From the NCBI GenBank assembly GCA_002749535.1, contig MZZL01000136.1, positions 142,339-206,338 of the forward strand: a DNA stretch of 64,000 nt, written 5' to 3'. Each line of letters opens with the position of its first letter. The stretch's first letter is position 1. The position numbers and the translations under genes are program-made. Below are positions 1,253-63,999 of this stretch, piece after piece. Below the pieces are notes generated by a model. It saw only the letters and a program-made list of their open reading frames with translations, was not told where the DNA came from and searched no databases. This DNA comes from Apophysomyces variabilis. Its lineage: Eukaryota > Mucoromycota > Mucoromycetes > Mucorales > Mucoraceae.

Positions 1253-4200
1253 TTATGGTAGATTTCTATATTGTTTGCAGCGACTTCTTAAGGAAAACCC
1301 TTTGCAAGAAGGATCTTTGCATATGCTGCATGTACGTGTTGACTTTTTAGGAACGTGTGTAGGACGAGTAATTACATAACTAATGGCTGAGCTTGACAGG
1401 TTTGCTGTTTTTGGAGCAAGTCTTCTAGGAACTGGTAGATTAGGATTATGTATAACTGGACTCGCTGCAAGTTGGACTGCAGGTAAGGAGAGTGGGTGTG
1501 TGAATAAACTGTGTGCTGCAGAAACTGGAACGAGAGGTGAAGGAGTATGTGCTGGCAAAATAGTATGAGCGCGCCCAGGTGATTGTAGCTGTTGACGCAT
1601 AACTTCACATATGTCTCTGCTTAATTGAATACTGCTGGTTGCTGTTCTTCTTTCATTCCATATATTGAATTGCATCCTCAAGTGGTCAGGAGTCTTGTAG
1701 AATATATGTACACCATCAGCACTATCTCTGTTCCATGTTCGAGCAAGTTCTTTCCAATCCATATGATCTTGTGAGTTTTGGAAGTTGGCCATTAGGTTTC
1801 GGAAAAGACTGAATTCTTGTACAGTATGTACAGGAACTATTGCATAGATGGAATTTTGCTTCTTAGCAAGGTATGAGTATAGCTGTCCCTTTCGGTTGGC
1901 TGTCGATTTTCCAGAGATAATGAGATATGCACTGGTTTGCACTGAAAATCCCTCATCTAATTGCTGTACCGGATTGTCACTCTGATTATTGGCAAGAGTA
2001 ATATTTAGTTCTTCTGCTATATCACTCGGGAAGAAAGTTATGCCAAATGTTTCATGGGGCGCATTCAATCTAAATCCATCCTGATATATTCCTGCTTGCT
2101 GAACGTTGTAAACATCCAGTCCAAGGTCTGCCCTTAGATCTTGAATTGTCTTAATCAACCATGGCTCGTAGTGGCCTTTATGTACACGGCCGTATCTGTT
2201 GACAGTACCAACCTTAAAAAGGATTGATATCCACATGTCAATATGCCTGTATGTATTTCTAAATATATGATTTTCAACTTACATCTATATTGTGACGTAG
2301 ACGATAATCAGCAAGAACTGAGTCTGTCAAATGCGGCCCTGCACCAAAGGAAATAAACTTGCGGATAATATTTTGATGCACGCCTCCTTCTAAGGAATTA
2401 GTTCCACGGCTGCATCTATACAGTGGAAGATTGTTGTTATCCCGGCCAATGATAAAATAAAAGGAGAAGTTTGGCGGATCGGATACATGTCCAAGATGTA
2501 TAGCTTTCAATACGTTTTCAGCTTGTTTTTCTGCTTCATTGTCAAATAATGGAAGTCCCGTTTTTGCACACAGAAGAGGACCATACTCTCGGAACAAATT
2601 CTCCACCACTGGGTATAATTCGTCAGCTGGAGGTACAACACGCCTGACCCTGCGAAATACCCACGAGGGTTTAGTGGACAACATGTAGTCCCAGCTAAGG
2701 TTCTTGGAATTAAGATATGCTTCCACCAACTGACGATCCTCTTGGTTGACTACAAAGATAGCATCGCGCAGGCGACGAAAGAATTCTTTTGCCAAGCCAT
2801 GTCGTCTTGATATCTTAATCATATCCATCAGATGGAATACGTCTTTTAATATCCTAGGGTTTCCCCTGACAGATGGCTCGATTGATTCCTCCATTCTGTT
2901 ACCGTCAGTCTCTTCCATAGGACGGCGAAGAGACGGTAAGACATCTTCCAAAAACTGTCTATCGCCTTGTACATTATCCGTAAAAAAAATTTCTGGGGCT
3001 TCATGCCCATATGCACTGTATGATTGAATCATCTGCCGGAAAGATGCTTTGAGGTGCGACGGTGATTTGGTGGGGACGAGCATCTGCATCCGGATCTCTT
3101 CATATTCGTTGCATACAGTGTAAAGTGCAGTAAAGATAGGCGCACTTTCAATCTTTGCCATATGCTTAATGATCTTGAAGGAATGGTCGCCTTTCAGAAT
3201 TTTTCCACCAATTTGCATCATTTGTTTATCAATCAATGGCCGTATTTCATCCATGATTCTAGTGTACACTTGACGCAAATACGCTGATGATGGAACATAG
3301 CCGGCGTATCCTTGCATATCACTGAAACTGGAAAAATTGGCAGGTCGAGCATGGCACAAGAAATCACCAATTGTAGGTTGGCTTCTACGTAGCTTTAAAG
3401 CATTCAGATATTGCAGTTCAACTCTGTCATGGCGGAGCGTATGTAGCTCTTGTAGAGCATGGCGAAATCGTTCAATTCCCATGCCTTTCTGAATGCAAGT
3501 CCGTAGCAAATCCCCGACTCTTTTTGATACTGCGCATCGATGCGTAAGATACGCTGGGAACTCGGCAGCTAAATGACCGGAAAGTTGCTTCATAATACGT
3601 TCGTTATAGGAAGCTAACGTTATACGGCAAGTGGAACTGCTGCACTGATAGCGTACGCCCATAATATAGAAACAGCTGGTTGTCAACATAGGCAAATTAG
3701 TGTCAAAAGACCTTTCCTACACAATAACACATTTATACATACCTGTCTATATCCACCACACGACGTGCATAAGGATCACTATTATAAGACTTAACATATA
3801 ATTTACTATTGCATGTCGGGCAGTTTAACTCCTCGACTAGGTGATGAGGCAACCAGAGAAAGACTCGAGGATAATAGAGTACAGCAGGATCGATAATGTT
3901 ACTTTTCATAGCGAAAAACGGTTCTGGCGGATTAACCCAGAAAGTACCACGGTTATATTCCTCTGGACATGTTCTCTGGCTTATTCGGGCTTGCAATGAA
4001 ATGAAATATTGCTGTAGTATTCCACTAGGAGCTTCTGTATAGCTCTGGTCATCATCAACAATATTCTCATCATCATAAGTTGATGGCTCTTTGAATATGT
4101 TGTTTCTAGAGAAGCTATCTTCATCACCAAATTCTTCGATATTAGGGCTACTGTGCTGCATGTCAAGGTTATTGCCCATTGAAGAACCACGCTGGGTTTC

Positions 4201-51852: not shown

Positions 51853-53787
51853 TCCGAGACCTTACCAAGCCTGTCTTTCTTTCGTTTTTTCCCCCTCTGA
51901 ATTAAACTATAGTCAACACGTTTTTTTAGTTCTTTTACGAATAAAATGTGGATACAAATGGGAATAAGAATTGCAAATGATCGACAGGCTATTTACACAG
52001 CGTAAATAACTATGCCAATTACCCGTTGCCATAGTGACAACTCCGGTCCCTGATACCTTAGCTTTGCTGTCATGGGGTGCAAAATAGCGTTGGTTTTTTA
52101 TTTAACAGACAAACAGGCTATTTCCTTCGATGCAATAAGTTTTCGTATGACAGCCATCGATTCTTACCCAACAAGTGCATGTTAGATTAACTAAACTTAT
52201 ATTTATTAACTTGCTTCACCTCTGTTATACCAGAAAGTGCTAATCAATAGCTCAAATCATACTGACTCGTCTTCGAGGTTTTGCCTGTTTGATCAAACTC
52301 ATCAAAAGGCTGTGTTGAACCACCAATCCGATAAGAGGATATCGTGATCCCTTATTTTTCTTACTTTAATTTTTCACTTGGACACGTAAACGATCGGTTC
52401 TCATTTCCTACAGCAGACTTTACGGTATCATCAGCCGGAGTCACCGAATTTGTGACAAGAGTCACAGCCCGCCTGCTGAATTTTTGGCTCTGTCACCAAG
52501 CTGAGTCGCAGCTTTTGATACTTTTCTCAAGCTATTTCAATTTTTGCATTGGCAGACGCTCAGATAGCTCAGAAATATCGCAATCTCTGTCACTCGCTAG
52601 CCGAAGCACTAATCTTTTTTTTTCCCTAGACGGATATCGAAAAATACATGCTAACCTTACATTATATACACACTTTATCTGTAGAAGTGCATGTTACAGA
52701 TAGATCTTTATGACCTTGTGTGCGGATTGGCCTGTATAGGCGACGAGTAAGATAGCGATCTTTTGTACTTCATTTGTTTGTACATTTACTCTCCACGCAC
52801 AGACGTTGTATATAAAAACAGATCCTAAAATCTCAGGATCCTCGCGTTTCTGATATCCTCAAAACGGTTCCTACCATTCCTTACACGCATCTTTCTACAG
52901 CGCTTCCTCGCCCACACCCACTATACTTATGCATTCGCTCTTCGCAAGTAGATAGCGAAGTTGGCCATAGGCCATGCTATTACATCATCTACGGTCCACC
53001 TTTAACTAAAACTAAACAGGAACAAAAGAACTACAAATGACAACAGAGAACTTTGTTTATTTGCTGTAACGATACTGTCAATCTTCTTTTATTTCTCTTA
53101 AAACATTGGTAGCTAAAATATAAAGGTATATATAATGAAAGCAATAGACTACACACATAGAAAATAAAAAGAAAAAGCTCGTTCTACACATCAAAGATAA
53201 ATTACACAAAGAATTTCAATGTCTCACTTCTGTTTCTTTCTTGCAGGAACCTTTTATTGGTTCGTTTCTTTATTCACTGAGTGTATATATTAAAGTGAAT
53301 ATAGATAAACCATAGAAGTTTCGTTTAAGGGCACTTTTCGTAGTGCTAAGAAATCGGATATGTACTTATTGTATAAACTACAGTATTATGGAGATTTACG
53401 ATAACCCCTTTTGATGTTTGCATAAGTGAAAACATCAATTACGCCATCGAATATAATGATTGTTTTATCAGTGATCATCTTCAGTATTTGACACGCCGAC
53501 TGCAGAATGATTCATTGTCTTGAACTATACTGTACTGTTACACAATCCAAGGAGAAGTATTCACAATGAAATGATTTGTTTAAATACGTCATATTTCAGC
53601 AGTTGATTCTTATTCTTAACACTTCACTGTCTACGCAGTCTCAAGTACTTATTTACTTATCCTTTTTATTGTACTATTTTTTTTTTGTTATATGGTAAAG
53701 TAAAAGACAGAAAACAAGCACTGCACACTAACGTTAAAAATATGGTAGCTGCCAAATTTGAACTTTGTAGGAAACCCAGGTCTTAAT
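51853..53787. other. Gene-poor interval upstream of the Fanzor gene
   Basis: About 1.9 kb, strongly AT-rich, with only weak short frames (such as 52344-52703). It may contain the left end of the Fanzor element, but I could not find terminal repeats by eye. A TATA-like TGTATATAAAA lies at about 52806. A poly-T tract and TTATATGG at about 53680-53695 lie 100 bases before the predicted ATG. Confidence 0.35.
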
Positions 53788-56700
53788 ATGGGCGATGCCA
53801 TCAGCCGTAGCCCCACTAAAAACTATGAGCAGTGCATGCAAACAGTGATTGCTGGGGCTAGAGGGCGACCAATATCAAAAGAGAACCGAAGCAAGGCGCT
53901 ACAATGGTTGCAAGCAAGGGGTATACAAACCGTGTCTAAGCTTTTCAACACCTCTCCATTAGAGGCTGCCTTGTCTGTAGCTGTAGTGCGATGCTTAGGC
54001 GACAAGCAGCATGCTGTATCCCTACGATTATCTGATAACCAAACCATTCCCGCAAATGGCCTTCTACGTCTGATTGCTATTGCCAAAATGTACAACATTC
54101 GGGTGTACCTGTTCTCCACGCAGAGCAAACCTAAAGTGATTGGAAACAATCAGTCAGTCTATAACATGTCGCTTCTTCATGAAGTGGACTCTCATACGGG
54201 AACCAGTCGTTGGGTTCCTTTATATATCGCAAGGTTTACCTCTCCGAAGCTACCGGGTCCTGAAACCACAATCGAAAAATCACCTTTTATATCACCTGCT
54301 GCGACCATGAAAAATGTCGTGGGAGAGCGAAGGAAGAAAAAACAACGTGCACCACTTGGTGTGACAGAAGAAGTTATTAAGGATGAGTTACGAAAAGAAA
54401 TGTAAGCATGATCATTGTTTTTACTTGAACATCATCTAAATACATAATATCACAGCAATAAGAGGATACATTTGGAATTTTCCAGAATTACAAGAAACAA
54501 AAATCCAACTCGAGCTGCTTTAGAAAAATTCAAAGAGAAATTCATGAACCGAAACAAGACGCCTAAAGGTTTGATAACTAGCAGCGGAAGCTCGGATCAT
54601 CTTTTCAAAACCTTGAAAGAGAAATACGGTACAAAGGCTTCTCCATCTGCTCTTGAACAACATTTCAAAGGCCCGGATAAACCTGTGTTGCTCTGGAACG
54701 ATATGGCAAGATTTTTTTATCGCAATCAGTTGAAAAAGATCACTGATCACGAAATACAAGCTGCATCAGTCAAGGATTCCAAGAGAAAAGCAAGTGATAT
54801 ACACGGTGATGATAGTGAAGGTGATAACAGAAGTGGTGACGAGCCAAGTGAAGACGAGGAGCAAAGCGATGACGAAGACGATAACCATCAAGAGTACGTT
54901 CGTGTGGCTACCACAACTTTGCGAAAACTTGTTCGCCCAGATATCGATCTTGATACTGTAAGATCCCGCTTGGTGATGACACAGGAATCAAATTCGAGAG
55001 TGATAAGCAATATGGAAACTGTTTTATCTCATTTTACGGATATGGTTTGTCGTTTGACATGTTTACTACCGGGAAGTTAAACATCTCCTCGTTAGGTACT
55101 TCGCGGCGACGTGTACCAATTCATTGGATATGACAATTACAGTACTCAAATCAACCTAGCAGACGTTTTCCCTGCTGATTACGACTTTGGCGATCATAAA
55201 GCTAAACACAGTATAGTCTCTCTGCCTTTTATTAATGCAGACGCCGCTGTCGATTCAAACATATTCACTTTTGCTCAGTTCCAAAACATGTTCTACAGCA
55301 CAGTTGGCGGTATATACACAGAGCAGATGTACGTTTTACATTTTATAGTAATCTTGCTAATTCTTTTTTCGGCTGCAGACCTAAACCATGGTTTAGCATA
55401 AATGGTGTGCTATCCTCCCTGGTCGATCCCAACGATGATGCTGTAGCGTCACAGTTTCAAGCCGATTCTTTAAGGGCGTTGTATACTGCGGCGAACAATC
55501 TCTACAGTGGTTCCTTATATCCAAGATCTCTTGCCAATGTCATCCGTCTGTTGCTCCGTGTAAATTTAGCGCCACGTCGCATGTCCAAATACATGCAGCT
55601 TGTGAAGGAAAAAGCCGAAGAAAAGAAGGATCGCCAAGAACAGCGACAAGATTTAAGGTCTAATGTACAAAGACGGCGCAATCGATCGTACTGGACCAAG
55701 GAACTGAAGAAAGCATACATGAATGGTCGTCCCGATAATGTGGTCGAAACTATTCAACGCAAGATTGCTGATAATTTACCTCGAAAAGATCGAACAGAGG
55801 ACCAGAAGAAATCGAATGAAGAGGAAATTAAAAGTCAAAAAGCTGACGATGAGTACGAAGCTTTTAGGCTTGATCAAGCAGAGGATGACCTGGTCAATGA
55901 TTCTGAAGATGACGAAGATACGGCAGCTACTACTAGTAGCCAAGCTCCAATAACCAGTAAGGAAACCAGTGCTCGTACTATTCGTACACTAGTTGCAATT
56001 GTTCGTATGCTGGTCGAATCCCCCCTGATCAAACGTACTATAAGTGCAAAAGACGTCGCAGACGCTGTCCATACGGGTACTATATTGACCATAACCGAGC
56101 AACAAGTGGCTGCCAAAGTTGCCAACTTCCTGAAACCATACACACCACGCAGAAATGAACCTGATGAACCTCCAGCAAAGCATATACTTACCGTATTGCC
56201 TATTGCGGCATTATCGAACGTAGTCAGTACTATCTTGGGCATGCAAGATCGTGTCAACAAGCTGACGATCGAAACAAGTAACAAATGGGCTTTGCCAGTG
56301 AAAGCAGACGGCATTTACAAAATCATGATTGATGCATTTGATATACCTACAAACAGACAAGGGGAATTCATCACTAGTGGGCTTCAAGCGAGGACTGAAA
56401 AAGAAACCGTCTTTAAAGCATTTTTCCAGATGGACAAAATACATCGCATGATGAATCGGCGTCATTTATTTTTCCGTTGGAGACTTGTCTTTGTGAACGA
56501 GTGGACTGTACGAGTCGTAGGGACTATCAACCGAAACACACCACATCAAGTAAGTGAATAATACGAGTCGAAGGCATTGTTAATTGATACAAACTTTAGG
56601 TATCTGCACTTCAAGAACGTCGAAATAATCAAAGATTCGTGGAACCCGAGATAGAACTCACGCTCAGCAAAGCTCAGTTGCAGGAGAGAATTGATCGCAC

Positions 56701-57976
56701 ACAAGCAAGCATACTCGGTTTGGAGCAACAATTGAAGCCAATACAAAAGGAAATAGGTGCCTTGGAAAAAGAGCGGATGAATCACAGCACATCAGCTCAT
56801 GGACGTACAAATAGCACGGCATACCGAAAACTGAAACAAACCCGGCAACAAATCCGATCTAAACAAAATACTGCCATTGTCCTACAAGAAAAGCTCAAGC
56901 AAGCTCGACGGGATCGTTACGTCCTTAACAAAGCGATGAGAGAAGTAAGCAGAAAAGGGAAGGGCAAAGAGAAAAGAAGCGCTTCAACAAGTCGCTCCCG
57001 AAAGCGAAAGCGCAAAAAGCAAAAGCGCAGTAGCCAAGCAACGTCATCTGCCAAAGCAAAGATCACCGAAGGGTATATGCCACAGGTAAGTACACTTTAA
57101 TCTGAAGAGATCATGAAAGATTGATAACGATTTTAGATGCTGTCTCTCCTGAAGCCACTTTTTGAGAAGAATTCGATCCCTGTTTGCGGCGTTGATCCCG
57201 GTATCCGGACCACCGGTGTGTCAACAAGTACGACATCTGCATGGATGATACAACGGATACGGGACTTTACCAGTAACACAACGACAGAGCTACGGCACGA
57301 TATTTATAATACCTGGAGTCTCCGAGCATCAGCTGTCAACCATCACTCGCGCTCGAGCAGACATCGTTTGCGCAGAGAACGAGCCAAGAATGCTGAGAAA
57401 GAGGGAACCGAAGCTGAGAACAGGAGAATTGAACGTGAAAAGCGTACTAGAGAGGTGTTTACCCAGAAAGCATACCACAAGTATGCTGACATCGAACGTA
57501 TGCACTTCCCCCCAGACATGATTTTTCAAAAAGCTGTTCATTTTTACGGCCATTGGCAGCCCACCAATTCTCGCATTCGAGGACATGCTCGCAGGGGACT
57601 CAAACGGTTACGTGGAGTACAACGACGAAAAGGCTTGGTAGTTATTGTGAACGAGTACAACACTAGTAAGACATGCCACTGGTGTCTCAAGCCTCTACAG
57701 TTACAGAAATACCGAGGGAAGGACGGCAAGGTCAGGAAGTGTAATGGAGCTGTCTGCTGCGTCAACCCCAACTGTGTTACCGTCGTCAACGGCTGTAGCA
57801 CGATGAACCGGGATGGCAATGCGTCGAAGAACATTGCACTCAAAGGCGTATCCATGATTGTCTCAAGTGATGGAAGTCCAATCCCGGTGTTCAACTCTCA
57901 ATACTCAAGCAATTACAAGCTTGCACAACAATTTGCTAGTCAACCAACTCCGGTTCGACTTCTGCATGGCCCGTGA
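53788..57976 (+). CDS. Fanzor (eukaryotic TnpB-like RNA-guided nuclease), six exons
   Basis: Exons 53788-54401, 54456-55044, 55096-55328, 55379-56549, 56600-57085 and 57137-57976 join in frame to about 1310 residues; introns are 50-54 nt with GT-AG ends. The last exon carries the TnpB/Fanzor core: RuvC-I Asp in CGVDPGIRTTGV (about residue 1051), a basic arginine-rich helix, VVIVNEYNTSKTCHWC with the relocated RuvC-II Glu of Fanzors (about 1204) joined to the first zinc-finger CxxC, further Cys in KVRKCNGAVCCVNPNC, and RuvC-III Asp in NRDGNASKNIALKG (about 1257). Exon 5 has a coiled coil and a strong nuclear signal (SRKRKRKKQKR). Exons 1-4 (about 870 residues) have no domain I can name; they contain acidic tracts and the guide-binding lobes are presumably there. 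All catalytic residues appear intact. The start ATG is the first in frame; an upstream exon is possible. Confidence 0.88.
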
Positions 57977-58884
57977 AAGGCAATTACCTAGTAAGTACAA
58001 GCACTGCTCTATATCGGTGACTGATTTTTTGCAGATACTCCGTCGGTATTTGAGAAATTATTTGAAAAGGTCAAAGTTGATTCCAATATAAGTCTCCTTG
58101 ATCAGTCCACAAAGCTTGTCTTCGGATAGAGCCAGTTTTCTACGATATTGTTTATATGGATTCGAGGTCTCGCAAAGGACATGTCCTCGGTCCATCCATC
58201 ACTTCTTTTTTACATTCAAAGGAAAATTCTATTTTTTCACAGGACTCGAAATATCGCTCTTTGTTACAAGAGCTGATAGCCTACTAATCACGGTCCAAAG
58301 GAAAAGGGATTAAGCTTTTCCAGATGTGACACATAGCAATCAAAGATCTTGTAGGACCATAGGCTAGCTATGGATCAGAATTGATTAGAATCAAATTCAT
58401 TTAATGCTTTGATAAACATTCGGAGCATGGTAAAAAGTGAGCGTCTATCCTTTTCTCGAGTTCCCGACACTGAAAGTAAGCTATTATCGTTCAAGAAAGG
58501 ACAGTTATGAAGAAAAGCCCAGCTTTATATATAAAATTCATTAATGCTGTTCTCGTAGAGTATCGATCTGCTGGATGAAAGGAAACAGTCGCTGTTGAAC
58601 AAAGGGCATGATAAATATGAACAATCAAAAGCAAAAAGTAAGAATAGTCAGAAGGAAAGAAAGCTCGCCCGCTTTTTCTTCCTTCCTGCGTATCGATGAG
58701 ATAAAAATGGGGAAGATCTGTTTAAATGAGAAATTAAAAATAAACGAAGGGATAAAGTGGTTAGGATAAGAGAGAAAGAGAGAGGGACAGAGGGGGAGGG
58801 GAAGATGTGTGAGACAACAAAAATGATGAGAATGGTATGCAAGGAGGGAGCTGAGGTGAATAAGAGTGAATGAAAAGAGCAACA
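57977..58884. other. 3' flank of the Fanzor gene; candidate guide-RNA region
   Basis: About 900 bases without a supported protein gene. In TnpB and Fanzor loci the guide RNA commonly overlaps the 3' end of the gene and extends to the element's right end, so roughly 57900-58350 is the first place to look. I could not define a structure or right terminus by eye. The far end (58620-58880) is purine-rich 3' flank of the F-box gene. Confidence 0.3.
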
Positions 58885-63489: not shown

Positions 63490-63999
63490 CTAGTCCTCTT
63501 CATCGATGTCTTTGAAGGGATTCTTTCCATCGAAGTCGATAGGGGTATTAACATTAGTAGTTTCCTCGTCCTCTTCGTCGATGTCTTTGAAGGGATTTTT
63601 TCCATCCAAGTCGATGTCACGTCTGGTAAGAGCAGTTCCATCATCTTCTTTGTCGATATCCTTGAAAGGATTCTTTCCATCTAAATCAATCGGATTGTCG
63701 ACAGAAGCAGCTTTTTCGTCCTCTTTGTCAACGCCCTTGAAAGGATTCTTTCCATCTAAATCAATGGGAGTATTGGCAGCGGCAGCTTCCTTTGACTCGG
63801 TAGGAGGAAGAATATCACAGATGTTGTTCTTAGGGTCGTCTACACATTGATTAGTGAAGAGGTTGCAGCACTTCTTGCCAGGACAGTCATCATTGGTCTT
63901 GCACTTGTTTGTCTTGTACTTGGTATCCTTAAGAGCATCCTGAAGGAAGGGGTTTGACTCATAGCTGGGAGGCAAGTAATCGCAAATGGCGTAATAACT
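63490..63999 (-). CDS. Cysteine-rich protein with C-terminal tandem repeats (5' end outside window)
   Basis: The frame is open from the window edge to a TAG at 63490-63492 (169 residues visible), so the N-terminus and any signal peptide lie beyond 64000. A knottin/WAP-like module has TNKCKTNDDCPGKKCC, NLFTNQCVDD and NNICDILPP; the visible N-terminal residues (AICDYLPPSYESNPFLQDAL) look like the end of another such module, so modules are probably tandem. After it come four repeats of about 20-26 residues with the core D-[LF]-D-G-K-N-P-F-K-[DG]-[IV]-D-[KE]-E-D, the second and third separated by T-R-R. The repeats are strongly acidic. It is likely extracellular and may bind a cell-wall or metal ligand; the function is unknown. 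Confidence 0.65.
   Translation of the reverse strand, partial: SYYAICDYLPPSYESNPFLQDALKDTKYKTNKCKTNDDCPGKKCCNLFTNQCVDDPKNNICDILPPTESKEAAAANTPIDLDGKNPFKGVDKEDEKAASVDNPIDLDGKNPFKDIDKEDDGTALTRRDIDLDGKNPFKDIDEEDEETTNVNTPIDFDGKNPFKDIDEED

Follow-up and report, generated by a model that had tools for sequence, protein, structure and literature searches.

The window, by which is meant the whole 64,000-nucleotide stretch of Apophysomyces variabilis DNA analysed here, holds a repeated mobile element with a six-exon gene, the features of which are collected in Table 1. On balance the evidence favours the reading that the gene encodes a giant Fanzor1, which is predicted to cut DNA under the guidance of RNA, and that the element has likely been moved in trans by a tyrosine recombinase of the Crypton type.

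Table 1. Features of the Fanzor1 element, in window positions.
Feature	Position	Strand	Basis or remark
Whole repeated mobile element, 5,629 bp	52421..58049	+	abrupt similarity limits among copies at different places
Left terminus TACGGTAT	52421..52428	+	first CGGTAT direct repeat at 52423-52428; 25 left ends profiled
Exon 1	53788..54401	+	first ~177 residues without counterpart in families A and B
Exon 2	54486..55044	+	no synonymous excess, yet partly covered by the A/B alignment
Exon 3	55096..55328	+	six-exon model, synonymous excess, A/B alignment
Exon 4	55379..56549	+	six-exon model, synonymous excess, A/B alignment
Exon 5	56600..57085	+	basic, probably coiled; end spliced to exon 6 in P0007
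Exon 6	57137..57976	+	RuvC-I, RuvC-II, zinc finger, RuvC-III, stop codon
RuvC-I aspartate D1041 (DPG) codon	57194..57196	+	located in translation
Alternative RuvC-II glutamate E1194 codon	57653..57655	+	located in translation
C4 zinc finger C1201, C1204, C1229, C1234	57674..57775	+	located in translation
RuvC-III aspartate D1247 (NRD) codon	57812..57814	+	located in translation
Candidate omega-RNA scaffold (73 nt past the stop codon, up to the right end)	57977..58049	+	position as in SpuFz1
Right terminus, second CGGTAT direct repeat	58044..58049	+	24 right ends profiled

Identity and length of the protein

The initial annotation had taken the last exon of this gene for that of a Fanzor nuclease, an assignment borne out by a match to SpuFz1, by the TNB domain, by the molecular fingerprint of Fanzors and by the positions of the motifs. 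The Pfam TNB family is matched by the whole protein (E 4.6e-06, 27.1 bits vs a cut-off of 26.3), exon 6 alone falling under the same cut-off at 24.4 bits, and among solved proteins SpuFz1 alone (E 0.0043) matches exon 6 within the limit of E 1; none of the outcomes named as contrary to the assignment was encountered. With a nine-row profile SpuFz1 is the best match (E 0.00042), followed by four weaker ones at 0.12-0.92, and a query with all 1,300 residues matches it at E 0.061. These SpuFz1 scores are modest. The NCBIfam TnpB model, the cut-off of which is 100 bits, gives 15 bits only.

The molecular fingerprint of Fanzors, as described in PMC10711439, consists of DPG at RuvC-I and an alternative glutamate six residues ahead of the first CxxC; both are found in exon 6, six residues separating E1194 from C1201, the first cysteine of the CxxC, so that the RuvC-II glutamate stands just before the zinc finger, as had been proposed. 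The Fanzor1 motif given in PMC3627910, i.e. D-X(125,275)-[TS][TS]XX-C4 finger-X(5,50)-RD, is likewise present, in that a pattern of this form, with added finger spacers, covers the exon 6 motifs from D20, and the glycine conserved in Fanzor1 about 36 residues before the glutamate (G500 and E536 in SPu-1) has its counterpart in G1159, with E1194, in the SpuFz1 alignment. The D-E and E-D distances are 153 and 53 residues, compared with 158 and 65 in SpuFz1 (computed from D383, E541 and D606; PMC11423790). The earlier statements that the catalytic residues are intact (D1041, E1194 and D1247 are present, and are kept in 10/10 copies), that the motifs and a multi-cysteine zinc finger lie where they had been placed and that the exon has the translation quoted for it all proved correct.

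Six database proteins match exon 6, three of them from Apophysomyces ossiformis (75, 91 and 89% identity over 88, 59 and 62% of the exon, respectively), with three further proteins at 59, 61 and 92% identity over 100, 95 and 61% of it; P0003 and P0005, the two at ~60% identity, retain both the catalytic triad and all four cysteines. Queries with the full 1,300 aa, scored over the whole length or over the last 279 residues, returned zero relatives at E up to 0.001. Candidate relatives in viral contigs were rejected, none of 14 pattern matches being confirmed. Structure prediction for exon 6, from an alignment of just 7 sequences, gave a mean pLDDT of 32.7 and a pTM of 0.20, values too low for a fold to be read from the model. 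Because of the TNB match, the SpuFz1 match and the retention of triad and cysteines in all ten copies, the likeness to Fanzors is not ascribed to chance, and the protein is, as judged from its sequence, almost certainly a Fanzor1.

The six exons join in matching phases, with a single terminal stop, to give a modelled protein of 1,300 aa, and the introns (84, 51, 50, 50 and 51 bases for introns 1-5) all have the form GT...AG; the description of a six-exon gene with open junctions, exon 6 being the last, therefore stands. The model begins with the first ATG of the open frame, at 53788, and the true start, or exons, may lie further upstream. An apparent giant upstream frame, with exon 1 seemingly inside a 4,091-aa open frame at C29, was rejected, the adjoining sequence being a run of N. 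Provided that the model holds, the protein has about double the length of an ordinary Fanzor1, most Fz1 proteins having 600-700 aa according to PMC11423790; no Fanzor of such size was found in the literature searched. As many as 1,040 residues stand ahead of RuvC-I, and in this part, which precedes the TNB domain, a Pfam scan of the 1,300-aa protein matched no family.

The same genome has two further repeated families, A and B, the open frames of which are colinear with residues 178-1277 of the protein. Residues 178-627, 632-1005 and 1116-1277 align to successive frames, with about 20% identity in the weakest parts; because of this alignment the length of 1,300 aa is not regarded as an accident of the model. 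It is very improbable that two genes have been joined in the model, exons 1-5 encoding an unrelated protein and exon 6 alone being a short TnpB-like frame: an ATG does open exon 6 straight after the acceptor, and no Pfam family is matched ahead of exon 6, but the colinearity with successive frames of both families and the use of the same exon 5/6 junction by the A. ossiformis database protein P0007, which itself stops short of the RuvC-II glutamate, argue for one gene.

Families A (L074-L077) and B (L078-L081) are themselves Fanzor-like, with at least 12 and at least 10 equal-scoring genome matches, respectively; the four copies compared in each are 99.6-100% identical over 4.3-4.6 kb. Both have the alternative glutamate (NEHRSSQLC and DEHRSSQTC) and NRD, but DYG instead of DPG at RuvC-I. 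Elsewhere in the window a diverged tandem repeat of period 75 occupies 63494-63769, and a pair of open frames lying side by side on the minus strand at 1253-3716 (480 and 341 aa) resembles, by eye, another mobile-element protein.

Copies, termini and insertion sites

The genome searched (38.7 Mb in 126 contigs, the window lying on contig C27) contains at least 107 matches to the exon 6 protein, fragments and other families included. Ten copies were compared (c1-c10, c1 being the window copy), seven of which (c1, c3, c4, c5, c7, c9 and c10) have both ends. In c1, c3, c4 and c5, which stand at four places, no exon is interrupted and no splice site lost, and identity to c1 is 99.6-99.9%. Copies c7, c9 and c10 are broken, a run of N depressing the identity figure for c9. 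Of the remaining three, c2 stops at the end of its contig, and c6 and c8 genuinely lack their 5' part. Even the broken copies retain the full triad and all four zinc cysteines. Four complete and near-identical copies make recent mobility of the element highly probable.

A break-point hot spot near 56830-56880 was considered and rejected, the breaks at C64 and in c9 being runs of N; the stop at C4, which lies elsewhere, is also a run of N. The truncated copy c6 lies outside the window, ~42 kb away on the same contig (C27:241834-242670), and its right end reads GATACTGTGAAGGTAC instead of the usual bases; a similar GATACTGTGAAG stands before the break in c8.

Pairwise dN/dS of the window copy against c7, c9 and c10 is 0.35, 0.32 and 0.46, c3, c4 and c5 being too similar for an estimate; these values, and the pooled counts, omit codons in stretches of more than 20% local mismatch, a filter that in the dN/dS analysis affected c9 only (1222/1298 codons kept). 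The values suggest that the Fanzor gene has been under purifying selection in the past. The pooled changes in the same three copies comprise 160 synonymous, 221 replacement and 2 stop changes, synonymous changes being more frequent than under neutrality in exons 1, 3, 4, 5 and 6; the lack of such an excess in exon 2 counts against the model.

Among the 25 left ends profiled, bases 6-8 are TAT in every case and bases 3-5 mostly CGG, base 1 being T in 17, A in 5 and C in 3; the profile omits L035, which has the same flank as L032, and L048, which has lost its end. All 24 right ends profiled, from which c6 with its different last bases is omitted, terminate in TAT, and the preceding C, G and G are found in 16, 22 and 19 of them, having decayed in older copies. 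From these profiles CGGTAT is assigned, in the window copy as in the young copies, to both ends. Beyond these 25 left and 24 right ends the flanks are random. A 9-bp subterminal inverted repeat, noted by eye at 52439-52447 and 58014-58022 (AGTCACCGA and TCGGTGACT), is loose in older copies.

In none of 14 two-ended copies do the flanks share 4 bp or more within 3 bp of the junctions, as a target-site duplication (TSD) would, re-paired flanks being no different; TSDs of 2-8 bp were rejected as well, since none were in excess of re-paired flanks. A joined-flank search found near-empty sites, which are diverged paralogues, not alleles. The flanks are exactly 8 bp apart at C25 compared with c7 (TATGCTAT) and at C76 compared with c5 (TACGAATT); at C72 the site compared with the window copy has 9 bp (TAGGCAATT), with a one-base gap needed and a right flank matching at 12/18. 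These paralogous sites thus carry an 8-9-bp TA..AT-like motif where the element sits. Their (first) 8-mers match TACGGTAT at 6, 5 and 5 positions, a total reached by three random 8-mers in 5.5e-05 of trials, the sites having been chosen by alignment. At a fourth candidate, C43, the right flank matches a repeat in which GCGTAT precedes the junction; the left flank does not match this repeat. In the literature searched, no element with the same set of ends and near-empty sites bearing a Fanzor1 was found.

Mobilisation of the element

The left end of the window element is common to other loci in the genome, with 29 near-complete left ends. GCR1_C has 21 genome matches, 4 of which (at C77, C120, C43 and C10, loci that are related and not independent) sit ~0.9-1.2 kb inside loci with this left end, on the opposite strand; by our own estimate, to be read with the relatedness of the four loci in mind, ~0.03 GCR1_C matches would be expected by chance within 2 kb of the 29 left ends. 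The stretch past GCR1_C at C77 matches NDC10_II on the same strand (E 5.1e-06, 26.2 bits vs a cut-off of 26.3), with the one stop in its frame read as X; of the corresponding stretches retrieved at C77, C120 and C58, the scan covered that of C77. At C10 the order, over 8.4 kb, is left end (28084), GCR1_C (29236), the next stretch (29852), exon 1 (31865), exon 6 (35573) and right end (36482), as pieced together from coordinates in a copy that is itself broken; a nested insertion is the less likely reading of this order.

CryptonF proteins carry GCR1_C beside a tyrosine recombinase, and Cbf2/Ndc10 is related to them (PMC3212892). In fungal Cryptons the direct repeats at the termini are short, mostly of 6 bp, and neither terminal inverted repeats (TIRs) nor TSDs are present (PMC3212892, PMC3627910). 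The window element resembles CryptonF in its short terminal direct repeats, CGGTAT lying within the 4-6-bp range, in the absence of a TSD (0/14 copies) and in the presence of GCR1_C and an NDC10_II-like stretch at loci sharing its left end (PMC3212892). It differs in that its cargo is a Fanzor and in that no tyrosine recombinase with GCR1_C was found in the window copy. Profile searches of the genome for GCR1_C and Phage_integrase gave nothing on contig C27, the 18 Phage_integrase matches lying elsewhere, and the three minus-strand frames of 52421-53787 matched no Pfam family; in the DUF3504 search 0 controls matched. The searches having shown no recombinase in the window copy, the element is classed not as a Crypton but as likely mobilised by one, and mobilisation of the Crypton type appears, on the evidence of termini and related loci, rather probable. 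The serine recombinase PF00239 had no match in the genome (10/14 controls matched), which sets the element apart from IS607 and Fanzor2 elements.

It is unlikely, though worth weighing, that another transposase, e.g. of the Helitron2 or DDE type, moves the Fanzor1 element in trans and that the Crypton-like ends are coincidental. The want of a recombinase gene in the window copy and the 28 genome matches to Helitron_like_N are consistent with such an enzyme, as are the descriptions in PMC3627910 of Helitron2 elements without TSDs and of Fanzor1 elements without a transposase of their own. However, the Fanzor Helitron2s of Chlamydomonas insert after TTTT (PMC3627910), and no T-run or TTTT preference was found in the left flanks of 25 copies; DDE enzymes would be expected to leave a TSD, and none is found; and the left end is common to loci that encode GCR1_C.

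Candidate guide RNA and proposed working

The omega-RNA of SpuFz1 comprises 75 nt of scaffold, lying after the stop codon and before the right end, and 14-15 nt of flank (PMC10432273). By analogy, the candidate guide of the window element would be the first ~15 flank bases, from 58050. Shuffled sequences fold as well as the 73-nt 3' region (z 0.79, 1.05 and 0.11), and a 22-row alignment of it gives a weak fold of -5.3 kcal/mol. Identity over the last 100 bases and over exon 6, respectively, is 95 and 93% for C33, 92 and 93% for C43, 90 and 91% for C81, 91 and 90% for C94, 87 and 87% for C71, 84 and 89% for C83 and 80 and 84% for C95:3056682, i.e. these copies reveal no extra conservation of the 3' region over exon 6. 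An Rfam search of 52300-58300 returned one sub-threshold, chance-like match.

The absence of an omega-RNA signal in the folding of the 3' region, together with a protein of twice the usual size whose early part has no named domain, is what might be expected if the protein were a Fanzor derivative that does not cut, or a DNA-binding regulator of transposition, in an element still moving in trans. Such a role is considered unlikely, given that the triad and zinc cysteines are retained in all ten copies checked, and in P0003 and P0005, and that dN/dS is below 0.5. That the protein is an active RNA-guided nuclease today is moderately probable.

It is possible, albeit tentatively so, that the two activities form a composite system: the ~1,300-aa Fanzor1 element would be carried into TA....AT sites by the tyrosine recombinase of a Crypton, and the flank-guided Fanzor would cut the site left behind, whereupon the element is recopied, the system having been recently active in a present-day mould genome. 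In the favoured reading the likely working is as follows. A tyrosine recombinase supplied by related elements would excise and insert the element via the short CGGTAT repeat. The last part of the transcript, which follows the stop codon and reaches the right end, would act as the omega-RNA scaffold, with the first flanking bases as guide; Fanzor and guide would then cut the vacated or unoccupied site, where the target motif would serve as the adjacent motif, and repair after cutting would recopy the element, so preventing its loss.

The closest comparisons are with Fanzor1 elements of other fungi. SpuFz1, encoded by SPu-1 of Spizellomyces punctatus (8gkh; PMC10432273, PMC3627910), shares the order and spacing of the RuvC triad, the alternative glutamate and the C4 finger, and its right end lies ~75 nt past the stop codon, compared with 73 nt here. 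SPu-1 measures ~2.1 kb and has a single 633-aa frame, its TIRs being of 33 bp and its putative TSDs TA. By contrast, the window element has 5.6 kb, six exons, 1,300 aa as modelled, no TSD and a 6-bp direct repeat. Parasitella parasitica is a Mucorales fungus. Its PpFz1 (PMC11423790) is, like the window protein, a Fanzor1, with an omega-RNA of 75 nt that is as short as the candidate of the window element, but owes its extra size to a ~100-aa RuvC insertion, whereas the extra length of the window protein lies ahead of RuvC-I.

The MCi-2 Fanzor1 family of Mucor circinelloides is similar in belonging to the Mucorales, in being described as without TIRs, in its large (6-kb) Fanzor-bearing part and in that a subfamily, MCi-2A, is linked with a partial Crypton transposase (PMC3627910); it differs in having TSDs of 11-12 bp, where the window element has short direct repeats and no TSD. 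Because of these TSDs its authors left the class of MCi-2 open (PMC3627910). Large Fanzor genes in Mucorales are, given the 6-kb part of MCi-2 reported there, not wholly new, and the association of Fanzors with Cryptons is known in outline, as PMC10711439 lists Cryptons among Fanzor1-associated transposases and PMC3627910 leaves the Mucor case open. No paper on Fanzors in Apophysomyces was found in the open-licence literature searched.

Fanzor1 proteins are known from many types of transposon; here the ends, the near-empty sites and the relatives with marks of a recombinase can all be read within one genome, and the system lends itself to direct tests, as four of its copies are complete and near-identical. 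Should the composite reading be true, RNA-guided retention would be coupled to transposition by a tyrosine recombinase, and the Fanzor would have a large domain set ahead of RuvC.
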